A DNA stretch of 8,301 nucleotides from assembly GCA_016735355.1 (NCBI GenBank), contig JAERRQ010000377.1, forward strand, positions 1 to 8,301, written 5' to 3'. This stretch comes from Desulfobacterales bacterium (GTDB taxonomy: Bacteria; Desulfobacterota; Desulfobacteria; Desulfobacterales; BuS5). The translations under genes and the position numbers were made by a program. The notes below the pieces were generated by a model. That model made no database searches. It was not told the DNA's origin and saw only the letters and a list, made by a program, of their open reading frames with translations. This document shows, piece after piece, positions 1,686 through 7,630 of this stretch. Within the stretch, counting starts at the first letter, position 1; the number at the start of each line of letters is the position of its first letter.

Positions 1686-4136
1686 TCATTCAGGAAGCGT
1701 TGCATTAAACTCGGTTATCAGCTTATCGGAAAGTTTTTTATGGATTGCATTGATTTTATTGTCTTCCAGTGTCTCGTGGGCAGATCTGTAAGTTATTCTG
1801 AAAGATAGGCTTTTTTTATTTATCGGAACAGGTTCACCTTCAAAAGCTGCAAGGAGTTGCAGCTTTTCTACAAGCTTTTCTCCAAAAAGATTTAATTGTT
1901 CAAGTATGTTTGCCGATTCGAGATTTTTATCAACAATCATTGTAATATCTCTGGAAACTGCGGGGAATCTGGGGATTGGTTCAGCAAATATGGTTTCCGG
2001 TATGAGTTTGTAAAGCTCCGTGAGGTTGATTTCAAATATAAAAGCATTTGCTGAAAGGTTAAAATTTTTTAAAACATGATGATTGACCTCTCCTATAATT
2101 CCTGATGTTTTGTTTCCTGAAATAATTCGTGCAGTATATCCGGGTTTTGTATAAACGCATTGATTGTCCGGCAGCCTGGTAAATCTGATAGAAGTTGTTT
2201 TGTTAATTTTAAGCGCGTCAAACAGTGCTTCAACAGCTCCCTTAATATCATAAAAATCGACAGGGATATCATTGTCATGCCATGTTGATGCCTGCCTTGT
2301 TCCGGTCCATAAGCCCGTTATTATTTCCTTTTCATTAGGCAGAGTATCTTCTCCCTTGTGAATGAATATTTTGCCGATTTCAAATAGTTTTAAATTATGC
2401 ATACTTCGCGTAATGTTTCTACGCATGGTTTCAAGCAATCCCGGAACAAGAGAAGACCGCATAGCGGCATGGTCTTTAGACAAAGGATTCAAGAGCCTGA
2501 TCATGTTATACCGTGCATCGTCACGCTCAAGATTCAGGCGGGCTGCAGATTTATTATTGATAAAGCTGTAGTTGATACACTCTGAAAAACCTAAACCGGT
2601 CATAAGTCTTTTGATCTGTTTTTTATGAGCTATATGTATGGAAGAAGCTTTTGCCTGAACAGGAACAACAGGGAATGTTACCGGGATCTTGTTATAACCG
2701 TAAAGCCGGGCTATTTCTTCCATAATATCGACCGGCCTTTTTATGTCGACCCTGTAAGATGGTGGAGTTATTAATAATAAATCGTCTGCTTCGTCTTTTT
2801 TTTTATTTTTAACAGAGAATTCTATGTCTTCAAGCAGTTTTATAATTTTGTCGCGTTTTATCTCTGTTCCCAGAAGGGAATTTATCTCTTCAGTTTTTAC
2901 ATATATTGACAACGGTTCATAGGGTACGGGGTTTTCATCGATTGTTCCGTTTACGGCGTAGCCGCATCCTATTTTTTCTATAAGCAGCGCTGCTCTGTTT
3001 AATGCTTTAATCGTACCTGCGGGATCAACGCCCCGTTCAAAACGGTGGGCGGAATCTGTATTCAATCCGAGTTTTTTTGATGTTTTTCTTATACATACCG
3101 GGTCGAAATATGCGCTTTCCAGGAGAACGGATCTTGTCGTATCCGTGACCTCTGAATTGAGTCCTCCCATGACACCTGCAATGGCAACCGGTTTTTCTCC
3201 ATCGCAAATCATAAGCATCCGGCTGGAGAGCCTTTGTTCCTTATTGTCAAGGGTAGTAATATTTTCCCCTTGTTTTGCGGTACGAACGACGATTTTTTTT
3301 TCTGCCAGTTTATCCAAATCAAAGGCATGGAGCGGCTGGCCTGTTTCCATCATAACATAATTTGTTATATCGACAAAGTTGTTGACCGGCCGGATTCCTG
3401 TTGATATCAAGCGGTCTTTCAGCCAGAAAGGGGAAGGAGCGATTTTAACATTCTTAAAAAGCTTTGCGCCATATCTTGGGCACAGGTCAGTATTTTTTAA
3501 TGTTACAGATGTAAGATTGATAATGTTTTCCGGTGTATCCGGTATGCCGGAAGCAATGTACTTGCTTGAGGGGTATTGAACCGGCTTGTTGTTAAAAGCT
3601 GCAATTTCTCTTGCAACTCCTATCATGCTCAGGCAGTCCGGCCTGTTTGGAGTAAGATCGATTTCAAGCACATGATCGGTAAGTTTAAGCGCACCGGCAA
3701 GATTCTCTCCCGGAGTAAGGTTATCCGGAAGGTTCATAATTCCTTTTTTGTCTTCGCCTATGCCAAGCTCGGTTGCGCTGCAGAGCATACCACCCGATGC
3801 CTCGCCGCGGATTACACTTTTTTCGATGATAAGAGATCCTGGTAGTTCGGTTCCCGGCAGGGCCAGCGGAACATGCATACCTGTTTTGATATTGTCCGCC
3901 CCGCAAACTACATTTACAAGGTTATCTCCGGTGTTTACAGCGCAAAGCCTTAACCGGTCGGCATTGGGATGCGGTCTGATTTCGATTATGCATCCGACAA
4001 TGACTTTGTCAAGATAATCATATCTGTCATAAATATTATCTACTTCAAGGCCTGCCATTGTAAGTGCGTCGGCAAGCGCAGAAATTTCCATATCAACGGG
4101 AATATATTTTTCGAGCCAGCTTAAACTTACCTTCAT
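1686..4136 (-). CDS. pheT: Phenylalanyl-tRNA synthetase beta subunit
   Basis: Beta subunit of the cytoplasmic (alpha-beta)2 enzyme that charges tRNA-Phe; it supplies tRNA binding and editing. The protein is 816 residues (E. coli 795) from the conserved start MKVSLSWLEKYIPV. An OB-fold tRNA-binding domain lies at about 40-150 (RPHPNADRLRLCAVN, VVCGADNIKTG). The B3/B4 editing region follows at about 200-400 (TPNRPDCLSMIGVAREIAA, RPVNNFVDITNYVMMETGQP, IAGVMGGLNSEV, AHRFERGVDP), then B5 and the catalytic-like core. The C-terminal anticodon-binding (FDX-ACB) domain begins near PRFPAVSRDITMIVD. The frame stays open upstream to a TTG at 4205, but those extra 23 codons lie mostly in a palindromic repeat and match no PheT N-terminus, so I chose ATG 4136. 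No Shine-Dalgarno directly precedes this ATG; a good one lies 155 bases upstream. Confidence 0.97.
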   Translation of the reverse strand: MKVSLSWLEKYIPVDMEISALADALTMAGLEVDNIYDRYDYLDKVIVGCIIEIRPHPNADRLRLCAVNTGDNLVNVVCGADNIKTGMHVPLALPGTELPGSLIIEKSVIRGEASGGMLCSATELGIGEDKKGIMNLPDNLTPGENLAGALKLTDHVLEIDLTPNRPDCLSMIGVAREIAAFNNKPVQYPSSKYIASGIPDTPENIINLTSVTLKNTDLCPRYGAKLFKNVKIAPSPFWLKDRLISTGIRPVNNFVDITNYVMMETGQPLHAFDLDKLAEKKIVVRTAKQGENITTLDNKEQRLSSRMLMICDGEKPVAIAGVMGGLNSEVTDTTRSVLLESAYFDPVCIRKTSKKLGLNTDSAHRFERGVDPAGTIKALNRAALLIEKIGCGYAVNGTIDENPVPYEPLSIYVKTEEINSLLGTEIKRDKIIKLLEDIEFSVKNKKKDEADDLLLITPPSYRVDIKRPVDIMEEIARLYGYNKIPVTFPVVPVQAKASSIHIAHKKQIKRLMTGLGFSECINYSFINNKSAARLNLERDDARYNMIRLLNPLSKDHAAMRSSLVPGLLETMRRNITRSMHNLKLFEIGKIFIHKGEDTLPNEKEIITGLWTGTRQASTWHDNDIPVDFYDIKGAVEALFDALKINKTTSIRFTRLPDNQCVYTKPGYTARIISGNKTSGIIGEVNHHVLKNFNLSANAFIFEINLTELYKLIPETIFAEPIPRFPAVSRDITMIVDKNLESANILEQLNLFGEKLVEKLQLLAAFEGEPVPINKKSLSFRITYRSAHETLEDNKINAIHKKLSDKLITEFNATLPE

Positions 4137-4145
4137 CTTGGTCGT

Positions 4146-4291
4146 CAAGTAAAAATAACTTGCACACCTTGCTTGTCCTTTTGCTTGTTTTTTGTGTTGC
4201 GTCAAGGCTTACATAACTCGTTATGCGAGCCTTAACGCGCCTTGAAAACAAACAAAATTACGGCGCAATCTGTACAACTTCTTTGTACTTG
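4146..4291. repeat. 146-bp imperfect palindrome (MITE-like) between pheS and pheT
   Basis: The arms 4146-4208 and 4239-4291 are imperfect inverted repeats. Both outer ends read CAAGTA inward, and the outer 27 bases of each arm match at 21 positions. The arms share TTTTG and TTGTTTT blocks and end inside with tcaaggc (4202-4208) and gccttga (4239-4245). The centre can instead fold as aaggct (4204-4209) with agcctt (4228-4233), enclosing cataa/ttatg; the two central stems exclude each other. No target-site duplication is clear (CAAG next to each end is a weak candidate). It fills almost all of the 160-bp pheS-pheT gap and contains no gene or transposase. Confidence 0.75.
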
Positions 4292-4296
4292 CCTCC
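4292..4296 (-). promoter_or_regulatory. Displaced Shine-Dalgarno of pheT
   Basis: GGAGG follows the pheS TAA stop immediately and has no start codon at normal distance. The palindromic element begins at the next base. If the element (4146-4291) were absent, GGAGG would be followed by ACGACCAAG and then the pheT ATG, a spacing of 9 bases. This suggests the site was the original pheT ribosome-binding site before an insertion. Confidence 0.6.
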
Positions 4297-5304
4297 TTAG
4301 AATTGCCTTAAAAATCTGAGATCATTTTCAAAATATTTTCTGATATCGTCAATCCTGTATTTCAGCATGGCGATCCGTTCTATACCCATTCCGAATGCGA
4401 ATCCTTTATATAGATCGGTATCGTAGCCCGCATTTTCAAAGACCGCCGGGTGCACCATGCCGCAACCGAGAACTTCCAGCCAGCCTGTTCCTGAACAGAC
4501 CCTGCACCCTTTGCCCCGACAGATTACGCAAAGGATATCGACTTCTGCGCTCGGTTCTGTAAAAGGGAAGAAACTGGGGCGGAACCTTAATGATATTTGA
4601 TCATCAAATATTTGATGAATAAAAAGAGTAAGCATTCCTTTAAGGTCGCCGAATGTGGCCTTTTTATCAACCAGCAAACCCTCTACCTGGTGAAACATTG
4701 GAGTATGGGTCAGATCGGAATCGCACCGGTAGACTTTTCCCGGCGCAATGATTCTGACCGGGGGAGCCTGCTGCTCCATTATTCTTACCTGAATCGGGGA
4801 GGTATGTGTTCTGAGAACAATATTATCCGATATGTAAAAGGTGTCCTGCATGTCTCTGGCAGGATGGTTTTTTTGAATGTTCAGAGCTTCAAAATTATAA
4901 TAATCAGTCTCTACCTCCGGCCCCTCCGCAATATTAAAACCGAATTTGACGAAAATATCACAAATCCGGTCTGTAATCCGGGTAATTGGATGCAGGGAAC
5001 CTATAGCAGGCGATCTGCCGGGAAGTGAAACATCGATTCGATCTTCTGTTTGAATAGCTTTACGTTCGATATACAGGCGCTTTTTTTGGAAGGCTGCATC
5101 CAGACTCTTCTTCGCAAGGTTGGCCTTTTTTCCGGCTTCCGGCCTTTCGCCCGGAGGAAGCTTTGAAATATTTCTTAAAAATTGGGTGACACGTCCCTTT
5201 CGGCCGAGATATTTTACAAAGAGAGATTCCAGGCTCTTTTTGCAGTCGGCCGATTCCAGTTCCTGTAAAGCGTTTTCTTTTATTTGGTCAATATTATATT
5301 TCAC
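4297..5304 (-). CDS. pheS: Phenylalanyl-tRNA synthetase alpha subunit
   Basis: Catalytic alpha subunit of class II PheRS; it forms phenylalanyl-adenylate and transfers Phe to tRNA-Phe in the cytoplasm. At 335 residues it is close to the E. coli length (327). The N-terminal coiled-coil tRNA-binding domain spans about 1-85 (VKYLGRKGRVTQFL, KLPPGERPEAG). The core follows: DVSLPGR; HPITRITDRICDIFVKFGF; RDMQDTFYI; motif 2 region RTHTSPIQVRIME with GKVYRCDSDLTHTPMFHQVE; FFPFTEPSAEVD; motif 3 FAFGMGIERIAMLKY. A four-cysteine cluster (CVICRGKGCRVCSGTGW) precedes LGCGMVHP, as in many non-enteric PheS. The start is GTG at 5304: an in-frame TAA lies two codons upstream and no other start fits. No Shine-Dalgarno is visible, so coupling to rplT, 31 bases upstream, is likely. 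Confidence 0.97.
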   Translation of the reverse strand: MKYNIDQIKENALQELESADCKKSLESLFVKYLGRKGRVTQFLRNISKLPPGERPEAGKKANLAKKSLDAAFQKKRLYIERKAIQTEDRIDVSLPGRSPAIGSLHPITRITDRICDIFVKFGFNIAEGPEVETDYYNFEALNIQKNHPARDMQDTFYISDNIVLRTHTSPIQVRIMEQQAPPVRIIAPGKVYRCDSDLTHTPMFHQVEGLLVDKKATFGDLKGMLTLFIHQIFDDQISLRFRPSFFPFTEPSAEVDILCVICRGKGCRVCSGTGWLEVLGCGMVHPAVFENAGYDTDLYKGFAFGMGIERIAMLKYRIDDIRKYFENDLRFLRQF

Positions 5305-5335: not shown

Positions 5336-5686
5336 TTAAAGTTGCATGGATGCCGTTGTTGCCAGTTGGGTGAAGCCTGGAGGATCGGATATGGCCAAAT
5401 CTGCGAGAACTTTGCGGTCAAGTTCAATGTCCGCAAGTTTCAGGCCATGCATGAATTTACTGTAAGAAAGATTGTTTAAACGTGCTGCTGCATTTATTCT
5501 TGCAATCCATAGCTTACGGAACTCTCGTTTTTTGACCTTTCGATCACGATAAGCGTACATAAGCGCTTTGTCTACTGCATCTGCGGCAGTTCTGTAGAGC
5601 TTGCTGCGGCCCCCGCGGAATCCTTTTGCAAGCTTTAAAACTTTTTTTCTGCGTCGTCTTGCTTTATAACCTCTTTTTACTCGCAT
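5336..5686 (-). CDS. rplT: 50S ribosomal protein L20
   Basis: L20 binds 23S rRNA early in 50S assembly and in several bacteria represses its own operon by binding mRNA. The 116-residue protein has the very basic N-terminal tail ([20 protein letters not shown], then [14 protein letters not shown]) and the globular part ([47 protein letters not shown]), all typical of the family; E. coli L20 is 118 residues. The ATG at 5686 has an AAGGA-type Shine-Dalgarno eight bases upstream. It is 31 bases from both rpmI and pheS, consistent with one transcript. Confidence 0.98.
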
Positions 5687-5717
5687 AATTTTATTCCTTA
5701 TTTCTCAATAGCAATGA

Positions 5718-5915
5718 CTACTTGTTAGGTAAAAGCAGTCTTATTTCCCTCATATCACTTTTAGAAGCAATTTGTCCTTTTCTTAAAGATCGTTTTCTCT
5801 TGGTTGTCTTTTTTGTTAAAATATGGTTGGAATGTGATTTTGAAAAAGCTATTTTTCCGGTGCCTGTTTTCCGGAAACGCTTTGCGGCTGATCTATTTGT
5901 TTTTATTTTCGGCAT
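5718..5915 (-). CDS. rpmI: 50S ribosomal protein L35
   Basis: A small, very basic 50S protein of 65 residues, the usual family length. It starts [20 protein letters not shown] and continues [20 protein letters not shown], ending [10 protein letters not shown]. The frame is open seven codons further upstream to 5936, but the conserved L35 start MPKIKT and the AGGAG six bases before the ATG at 5915 fix the start. It lies between infC and rplT in the classic infC-rpmI-rplT order. A terminator-like hairpin and a palindromic element in the 233-bp leader separate it from infC, so its expression may be set apart from that of infC. Confidence 0.97.
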
Positions 5916-5942
5916 CTCCTGCTCCTTGATGAACAATAGGGA

Positions 5943-5984
5943 TTAAAAATAGAAGGCGCGAGCTGTCAAGAAACAGCACACGCC
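5943..5984 (-). terminator. Candidate attenuator/terminator hairpin upstream of rpmI
   Basis: On the minus strand GGCGTG (5984-5979), a T/T mismatch, GCTGT (5977-5973), loop TTCTTG, ACAGC (5966-5962) and CGCGCC (5960-5955) form an 11-bp GC-rich stem with one mismatch and one G-T pair. TTCTATTTTTAAT follows at once. This is the form of an intrinsic terminator. It lies only about 40 bases before the rpmI start, too close for a full separate promoter after it, so partial read-through (attenuation of rpmI-rplT-pheST) is the simplest role. No competing antiterminator was established. Confidence 0.55.
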
Positions 5985-5989
5985 ATATG

Positions 5990-6090
5990 TATAGACCGTC
6001 AGATAAATAATCTCACTGCGTTATCGGTCGTTGGAGTATTATAATCCGCCTCCCTCTGGCCTTGTGAAATTGCTTATCTGGCGGTCTATA
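5990..6090. repeat. 101-bp inverted-repeat element in the infC-rpmI gap
   Basis: The 17-base arms 5990-6006 (tatagaccgtcagataa) and 6074-6090 (ttatctggcggtctata) pair with a single mismatch, which is a G-T pair on one strand. After a 2x2 internal loop the pairing resumes for 8 more bases (6009-6016 with 6064-6071, one mismatch), leaving a 47-base loop. The TATAGACC/GGTCTATA ends could represent TA target duplications around a MITE, but this is not decisive. Alternatively it is a native long leader hairpin. It has no coding capacity and no sequence in common with the other palindromes in the window. Confidence 0.7.
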
Positions 6091-7303: not shown

Positions 7304-7338
7304 CGCCCGGAATCCAACCCTTTGTGAATTGTCAGCCA

Positions 7339-7367
7339 ATTATAGAATATATATTGCTTTCCAATAA
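7339..7367 (-). promoter_or_regulatory. Possible sigma-70 promoter for the deaminase gene, inside repeat copy 1
   Basis: A perfect TATAAT (7344-7339) lies 17 bases after TTATTG (7367-7362), a poor -35 match. A start near 7332 would give a leader of about 29 bases to ATG 7303. In repeat copy 2 the same hexamer is CATAAT. Confidence 0.4.
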
Positions 7368-7389
7368 TTACACATCTCTTCAATAGATT

Positions 7390-7406
7390 ATCAGTATATT
7401 ACTGAT
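7390..7406. promoter_or_regulatory. 17-bp palindrome, possible operator
   Basis: ATCAGTA-TAT-TACTGAT is a perfect inverted repeat (7-bp arms) inside repeat copy 1, about 90 bases upstream of the deaminase start. The equivalent stretch of copy 2 has lost the symmetry. The form would suit a dimeric DNA-binding protein, but no particular regulator is indicated, and AT-rich DNA yields such sites by chance. Confidence 0.25.
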
Positions 7407-7513
7407 GCCGGTAATATCAAGCTTTATTATTTATAGTCCTATTGTCATATTCGTTCATAAAATTTCATCAGTGAAGCACTTTCCGTACCAACGTCCCGGT
7501 TCACGCTTCCCGG

Positions 7514-7630
7514 TTTGTGAATTGTCAGCCAATTATGGCATATATATTGCTTTCCAATAATTGAGCATATCTTCAATATATTCTCCGCATATTAATGATG
7601 CCGGCAATATCAAGTTTTATTATTTATAGT
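7514..7630. repeat. 117-bp direct repeat, copy 2
   Basis: Direct-orientation copy of 7321-7437, starting 193 bases after it, 89 percent identical by direct count (13 substitutions, no gaps). It lies upstream of the response-regulator gene and carries a sigma-54-like motif absent from copy 1. Together with copy 1 it occupies most of the 399-bp non-coding region 7304-7702. Confidence 0.9.
7536..7551 (+). promoter_or_regulatory. Candidate sigma-54 (-24/-12) promoter toward the response-regulator gene
   Basis: TGGCATATATATTGCT matches the consensus TGGCAYR-N4-TTGCW, with GG and GC separated by exactly 10 bases. Transcription would start near 7562 and run toward the plus-strand gene. Copy 1 of the repeat has TAGAA in place of TGGCA, so it lacks the -24 GG. 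No enhancer-binding site was identified upstream. Confidence 0.4.

Follow-up and report, generated by a model that had tools for sequence, protein, structure and literature searches.

A MITE-like palindromic element in the pheS stop codon and a predicted hairpin-bridged Shine-Dalgarno sequence for pheT

In phage T4, the ribosome-binding sites (RBSs) of genes 38 and 25 are split by a folded spacer, which shortens the distance from the Shine-Dalgarno (SD) sequence to the AUG from 22 to 5 nt and from 27 to 11 nt, respectively. This structure was tested by mutation and with reporters, and that of gene 25 is common to close T-even phages (PMC3014915). Among dispersed bacterial repeats, the YPAL/RU-2 elements of Yersinia are described as having target duplications that range from 3 to 26 bp and inverted repeats that are internal (PMC2229807). 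In pneumococci, the BOX repeat encodes the 3' stop codon in 36 of 58 overlapping CDSs (PMC3049150). Here, we describe a palindromic element that lies in the stop codon of pheS and upstream of the start of pheT.

The palindrome at the pheS-pheT junction

The window, which is the whole stretch of 8,301 nucleotides analysed here, is one of the contigs of a Desulfobacterales MAG of 2.2 Mb (411 contigs, 83% complete). The order of genes on its minus strand is infC-rpmI-rplT-pheS-palindrome-pheT-merR-like gene-tRNA-nusA. The identities of pheS, pheT and the merR-like gene were obtained with Pfam and that of the tRNA with Rfam, and infC, rpmI, rplT and nusA are the names that we presume from the ORF sequences. 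The PheT protein is stop-free and 95% identical to PheT of G002, a genome of the same genus. Coordinates of the features are collected in Table 1.

As claimed in the first-pass annotation, GGAGG on the minus strand (4296-4292) abuts the pheS TAA (4299-4297), and nine bases, ACGACCAAG, lead from the palindrome to the pheT ATG (4136-4134), with no SD-like 4-mer in the 18 bases upstream of this ATG. The minus-strand RNA has a predicted folding energy of -64.1 kcal/mol, compared with a shuffled mean of -38.6 kcal/mol (z -7.58; none of 200 shuffles as good), and ungapped self-complementarity extends to 98 of 156 positions, compared with a mean of 40 and a maximum of 68 in 1000 shuffles. The palindrome is real and well beyond chance. 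It is indeed strong from the base after GGAGG, but the 146 bp proposed at first (4146-4291) are not the inserted unit, which is 4141-4296 (156 bp), since related copies show GGAGG and GACGAC to be termini of the element itself. The ends were set by 18 aligned 156-bp readings of the subfamily (one locus being included twice, the second time as the other strand), by the ends and flanking repeats of relatives and by the empty site in G002. The consensus of these readings starts with GGAGGCAAGT and finishes with ACTTGACGAC, and 7 of its 156 positions are different in the window copy.

Table 1. Features at the pheS-pheT junction of the window
Feature	Coordinates	Strand	Evidence or remark
pheS (Phe-tRNA synthetase alpha)	4297..5304	-	Pfam tRNA-synt_2d, E 9.7e-104; GTG start as listed
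pheT (Phe-tRNA synthetase beta)	1686..4136	-	ATG 4136-4134; Pfam B3_4, B5, FDX-ACB, tRNA_bind
TAA, pheS stop codon and left target-site repeat	4297..4299	-	
CAA, right target-site repeat	4138..4140	-	One substitution from TAA; AAG/AAG one base on equally readable
AAGG, native SD-like site within pheS	4306..4309	-	10 nt from ATG in the empty site
MITE-like palindromic element, GGAGG-ended subfamily, 156 bp	4141..4296	-	Subfamily alignment, ends and repeats of relatives, G002 empty site
GGAGG, left terminus of the element, predicted pheT SD	4292..4296	-	Start of the subfamily consensus; bridged spacing 9 nt
Hairpin base, 5' arm CAAGT	4287..4291	-	Pair probabilities 0.97-0.99 with 4146-4150
Hairpin base, 3' arm ACTTG	4146..4150	-	Pairs with 4287-4291
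Central stem-loop, including stem 4228-4233/4204-4209	4204..4233	-	Pair probability 0.97-1.0

Two mutually exclusive central stems had been suggested for the palindrome. Only one of them is predicted to form, the probability being 0.97-1.0 for 4228-4233 with 4204-4209 and 0.0 for 4239-4245 with 4202-4208. A two-state central switch was rejected on this account, and the alternative pairing is also missing from the sister-subfamily sequences inspected by eye. No promoter or terminator was found in the element sequence, and a covariance-model search of the window matched, at the gathering score, only one Rfam RNA, the tRNA at 1038-1110. The window contains other repeats. A second, different palindrome of 101 bp lies between infC and rpmI (5990-6090, TATAGACCGTC...GGCGGTCTATA, fold of -38.9 kcal/mol), and palindromes resembling it interrupt first-family copies in G002 (three loci) and G049 (one locus). 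Direct repeats of 117 nt each, 89% identical and with starts 193 nt apart, are found at 7321-7437 and 7514-7630, between ORFs that we take to be deaminase-like and response-regulator-like.

Comparison between genomes shows that the palindrome belongs to a family, that this family has ends and 3-bp flanking repeats of its own, that the site is empty in G002 and that the pheS stop has been retained. PheT was found in 39 of 40 genomes (the source MAG included), and 30 pheS-pheT junctions were read, among which the element is present only in the window's and in none of the 29 relatives (one of them, L028, covered over just 30 upstream bases). The window-G002 alignment is interrupted exactly at the element, its two sides (95.3% identity over 3968 bases, 96.2% over 1503) overlapping by three bases of G002, which places the element in the pheS stop codon. 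The left repeat retains TAA and the right one has a single substitution, and an exact AAG/AAG repeat one base further on is an equally readable form of the duplication.

The first-pass annotation had taken GGAGG for the SD sequence of pheT, separated from its start codon by the insertion, and had expected an empty site with GGAGG-N9-ATG in close relatives. The insertion does lie between an RBS and the ATG, and an empty site does exist in the same genus, but it reads AAGGCAATTC-TAA-G-ATG. GGAGG is therefore not the original SD sequence of pheT and came with the element, as the terminus of the subfamily. Removing 4146-4291 gives the GGAGG-N9-ATG spacing on paper and a junction unlike that of relatives. 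An SD-like 4-mer stands 9-11 nt before the pheT ATG in 22 of the 29 relatives. Judging from the empty site, the displaced native SD sequence is AAGG in the 3' end of pheS.

Distribution, ends and target sites of the family

A search with the junction returned matches in 7 of 58 genomes (the source MAG included), the best one outside the window being a 90% identical copy at a different location in G002. The conserved left-arm pattern gave at least 118 matching stretches in the genome collection, of which 80 became loci. Among the matches listed, these are mostly from Desulfobacterota MAGs (Desulfobacteraceae, Desulfobacterales, Desulfosarcina, Syntrophobacterales and others) and also from Methylococcaceae, methanotrophic symbionts of Bathymodiolus, Nitrosomonas, a Chromatiaceae MAG and an alphaproteobacterial MAG, with taxon labels of MAG copies that may hide contamination. 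In an order-wide search, the GGAGG subfamily was detected in 12 of 291 genomes, the source MAG included, with E-values of 1e-15 or better. G224 contains 16 copies, and G002 has 30 matches to the sister-subfamily end (core present in 20 of the 21 inspected), numbers that are lower bounds, few candidates having been scored per genome in the many-genome searches. Six contigs of G224 start inside the element, so copy numbers are underestimated and assemblies are broken at the repeat. The further genomic copies that the first reading of the window had called for are present in other genomes. In the source MAG itself, searches with the core pattern and the terminal pattern, each with up to three mismatches, found the window's copy only (411 contigs, 83% complete).

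Intact copies share a common core, and their length is mostly about 156-160 bp. The outer ~30 bp vary among subfamilies, yet they pair as matching inverted ends; in the window's subfamily, the terminal inverted repeats are weaker over the outermost 5-6 bp (GGAGG / GTCGTC). Across loci L051-L130, Desulfobacterota and Gammaproteobacteria have a conserved core in common, and the outer ~30 bp are exchanged for dissimilar sequences that still match each other as inverted ends, which looks as if different transposases mobilise one core. For the analysis of flanks, 63 of 86 parsed copies passed as intact on the criteria of length, end score and end base. Identical trinucleotides flank 51 of these 63 copies (29 TTA, 21 TAA and 1 TCA), compared with a mean of 26 and a maximum of 40 in 10,000 shuffles, and the next base outward agrees in just 20 and 27 of the 63 copies on the two sides. 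In an enlarged set of 95 copies, from which duplicates were removed by their flanks, the 3-bp flanks (mostly TTA/TAA) are identical in 80; those of the window, TAA/CAA, have one mismatch. The element is short and transposase-free, with terminal inverted repeats, a fixed 3-bp duplication, dispersed copies and empty sites. Judged by these features, it is MITE-like with a 3-bp target duplication.

An autonomous partner with the same ends was found neither among the truncated copies nor among the terminal-pattern matches inspected. Four loci (L056, L066, L112 and L127) are truncated or interrupted copies, and the transposase at L127, presumably IS30-like, is not flanked by the right arm of the element. 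Five further loci matching the terminal pattern and lacking the core (L207, L213, L221, L227 and L255) contained no recognisable transposase in the parts inspected. At one of them (L255, near 1500; G002:C1:1289540), an isolated element terminus, GGGAACTGGAAGGAAATAA, immediately precedes the start of an ORF and supplies it with an SD-like GGAAGG. Searches of viral contigs and plasmids gave no match to the element, and the G107 family search for extra copies, over four genomes, brought nothing new.

Open frames of 70 codons or more have a TAA repeat as their stop in 16 of the 63 intact copies. In the same loci, 190 of 3225 intergenic TAA/TTA are such stops (Fisher p 8e-7; 3e-6 without the window), and the enlarged set has 18 of 95 copies at stop codons (p 1.6e-5). 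A 3-bp TAA duplication leaves the stop intact, and therefore such sites may simply be tolerated ones.

Copies before gene starts and initiation at pheT

Other copies are found immediately upstream of genes. In G224, AGGA and the ATG of a POR-domain (PF01558) gene are separated by a copy that has the subfamily and orientation of the window's, and the junction reads AAAAACAGGAT-TAA-(element)-TAA-CATA-ATG. The seven start regions read in relatives are all element-free and have AGGA 6-8 nt before the ATG, and the nearest relative reads ACAGGAC-TAA-CATA-ATG. The POR gene is an independent second case of an SD-ATG split, comparable to that of pheT and in another bacterial family. At L111, the rimM GTG follows at 4 nt from a copy situated in the TAA of a khpA-like KH gene. 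A 46-bp internally deleted copy is present between argC-like and truA genes; it was rejected as a clean SD split and counts only as placement, because junctions of relatives vary there and have no clear SD. Copies in three genomes (L014, L110 and L111) lie in or beside the same operon (ffh-rpsP-KH-rimM-trmD, in which ffh and rpsP are presumed names), one at the stop of ffh, one ahead of an ffh-like start and one at the stop of the KH gene.

Placement before starts was counted for the 95 copies, using the 178 of 190 ends with at least 320 nt beyond them, homology-supported starts and a limit of 12 nt. Up to two mismatches per end were allowed for the GGAG type, and all four near-start cases of this type begin with GGAGG. 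SD-less starts within 12 nt follow 4 of 21 GGAG-type forward ends (pheT, the POR gene, rimM and truA), and near starts follow none of the 25 GGAG-type reverse ends. In the other subfamilies, near starts are found at 0 of 65 forward and 1 of 67 reverse ends, and SD-less ones at 0 of 132; the single near-start gene, at L014 and presumably rpsP, retains its own GGAG. The probability that at least four of the five near starts fall in the GGAG-type forward class is 0.0007 (0.005 without the window), in a test that is exploratory, framed after seeing the data, based on few cases and uncorrected for relatedness or insertion-tolerant sites. Both the limit of 12 nt and the exclusion of TTG frames were chosen by us; set aside were TTG frames at forward GGAG-type ends (L069, twice, and L172) and an 85-codon GTG frame (L078). 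With every raw near-start match counted, the figures are 6 elements of 21 versus 2 of 157. Past the limit, SD-less ATG starts follow the GGAATC-ended subfamily, 14 nt from a forward end (L110) and 22 nt from a reverse end (L054).

In agreement with the T4-like hairpin that the first-pass annotation had offered as one explanation, the predicted fold brings GGAGG beside the ATG, with a base stem of probability 0.97-0.99 and a bridged distance of 9 nt. Our main reading, to which we assign a probability of roughly 0.5, is that the GGAGG terminus, placed 9 nt from the ATG via the hairpin of the element, would act as the new SD sequence of pheT. This prediction is backed by the orientation of the copies and by the second split site. 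For a T4-type spacing of about 5-11 nt, the predicted distance at pheT fits, and those of the other three cases (12, 12 and, at truA, 16 nt) are outside it and exceed both T4 spacings (5 and 11 nt). Opening the SD, spacer and start codon is predicted to cost 4.9 kcal/mol at pheT, and the cost is high at rimM (7.9 kcal/mol) and truA (10.7 kcal/mol). In the unconstrained ensemble, the five bases of GGAGG have unpaired probabilities of 0.21, 0.28, 0.82, 0.68 and 0.39; the first two and the last G are mostly paired, which counts against a bridged SD.

Under the bridged reading, the 156-bp element of the dispersed family, which sits in the pheS TAA between the native AAGG and the pheT ATG, was presumably moved there by a transposase acting in trans. 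Ochre stop codons may be chosen as targets or tolerated as such, with a duplication that keeps the stop. The hairpin would form in the mRNA, and a 30S subunit bound to GGAGG would initiate at the old ATG, as in phage T4 genes 38 and 25. Ribosomes finishing pheS at the TAA beside GGAGG could feed re-initiation.

Alternatively, the element may be a tolerated selfish insertion with an idle GGAGG, pheT being translated SD-free, either through re-initiation once pheS has ended or with 30S subunits binding directly at the ATG. Starts without an SD may be the norm here, because pheS (GTG start, 5304) and the merR-like gene of the same window also have no SD-like site upstream. The same is seen in the pheT starts of 7 of the 29 relatives, which lack an SD-like 4-mer, and the SD-less starts at L110 and L054, next to copies of another subfamily (14 and 22 nt), also favour this account. 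With 95-96% identity to G002 in its flanks, the insertion looks recent, and a drop in expression could be temporary. However, SD-less starts within 12 nt occur at GGAG-type forward ends only (4/21 versus 0/157), and it would be unusual for re-initiation to span 155 nt that include a hairpin of about -64 kcal/mol. We consider translation of this kind unlikely, and we find it considerably less probable that translation begins at a TTG in the 3' arm of the element and gives the downstream protein a short N-terminal extension. No SD-like site is suitably spaced from either TTG. Open frames do lead from TTG codons in the element into pheT (ORF 1686-4205) and likewise into rimM (ORF 5476-6057), and the open frame of the POR gene has 223 instead of 198 codons, so that the three full-length cases are all in frame. 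This agreement is weak evidence, because three random frames would all agree once in 27 trials, or once in 9 if the first is taken as given. The truA case is out of frame, the frame of the element closing with TAG.

A shade more improbable still, in our judgement, is a role of the element mainly in the mRNA, as a hairpin for processing or stability by which pheS and pheT are uncoupled, with pheT translated from the processed 3' fragment. The long and stable predicted hairpin would suit such a role, but the 3' fragment would still be SD-less, and the element showed no promoter- or terminator-like site inside it. Hardly any weight is given to an assembly artefact, in which the element would have been wrongly joined into the contig. 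The copy is single in a 411-contig MAG, and contigs of another MAG begin inside the repeat; nevertheless, both flanks stay co-linear with G002 over the whole of the 4.0 and 1.5 kb compared, and the 3-base overlap where they meet is what a real insertion should leave.

Returning to the bridged SD, a broader reading can be put forward tentatively, as somewhat doubtful: the GGAGG-ended copies may form a self-accommodating MITE subfamily, whose TAA target would be an ochre stop, with the stop preserved and with GGAGG and the bridging hairpin re-creating the downstream RBS, in one orientation. If this were true, such an element would enter tight housekeeping operon junctions (pheS-pheT, khpA-rimM) with neither gene broken. 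Overlapping stop/SD/start junctions would be expected to be closed to insertions, and a stop-keeping element that provides an SD of its own, together with a bridging hairpin, would show how they can be invaded by mobile DNA. The split distances, 155-158 nt and 52 nt in the deleted version at truA, would also give a natural split-RBS series for testing 30S bridging of structured mRNA, in a family that spans genomes and MAGs of Desulfobacterota and other Proteobacteria.

Comparison with described systems

No description of this element family was seen among the papers that literature searches listed. It is a palindromic MITE family, an ordinary kind of thing in an unusual place. Its members resemble YPAL/RU-2, which are also palindromic (about 168 bp), dispersed and intergenic, and for which target duplications and both occupied and empty sites are described (PMC2229807). 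In contrast to YPAL/RU-2, the inverted repeats here are terminal and the flanking repeat is of 3 bp, mostly TTA/TAA; identical in 80 of 95 copies, it does not have the variable length of the Yersinia duplications. Short length, terminal inverted repeats, target duplication and multiple copies are shared with the MITEs Correia, RUP and Nezha, although an SD-like terminus goes unmentioned in what those accounts say of them (PMC2229807, PMC3049150). The family differs from MITEs at large in that its parental transposase was not found among the copies and terminal-pattern matches inspected.

Pneumococcal BOX elements are likewise small interspersed repeats, some of them at gene stop codons (PMC3049150). 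BOX, as described there, supplies the stop, whereas the element at pheS duplicates the host's own TAA. In phage T4 genes 38 and 25, as at pheT, a structured spacer separates the SD sequence from the AUG, and here the distance would be shortened from 155 to 9 nt according to the predicted fold. Compared with the T4 structures as described, the hairpin at pheT is a 146-nt palindrome that, in this prediction, a mobile element would have brought along together with the SD sequence.
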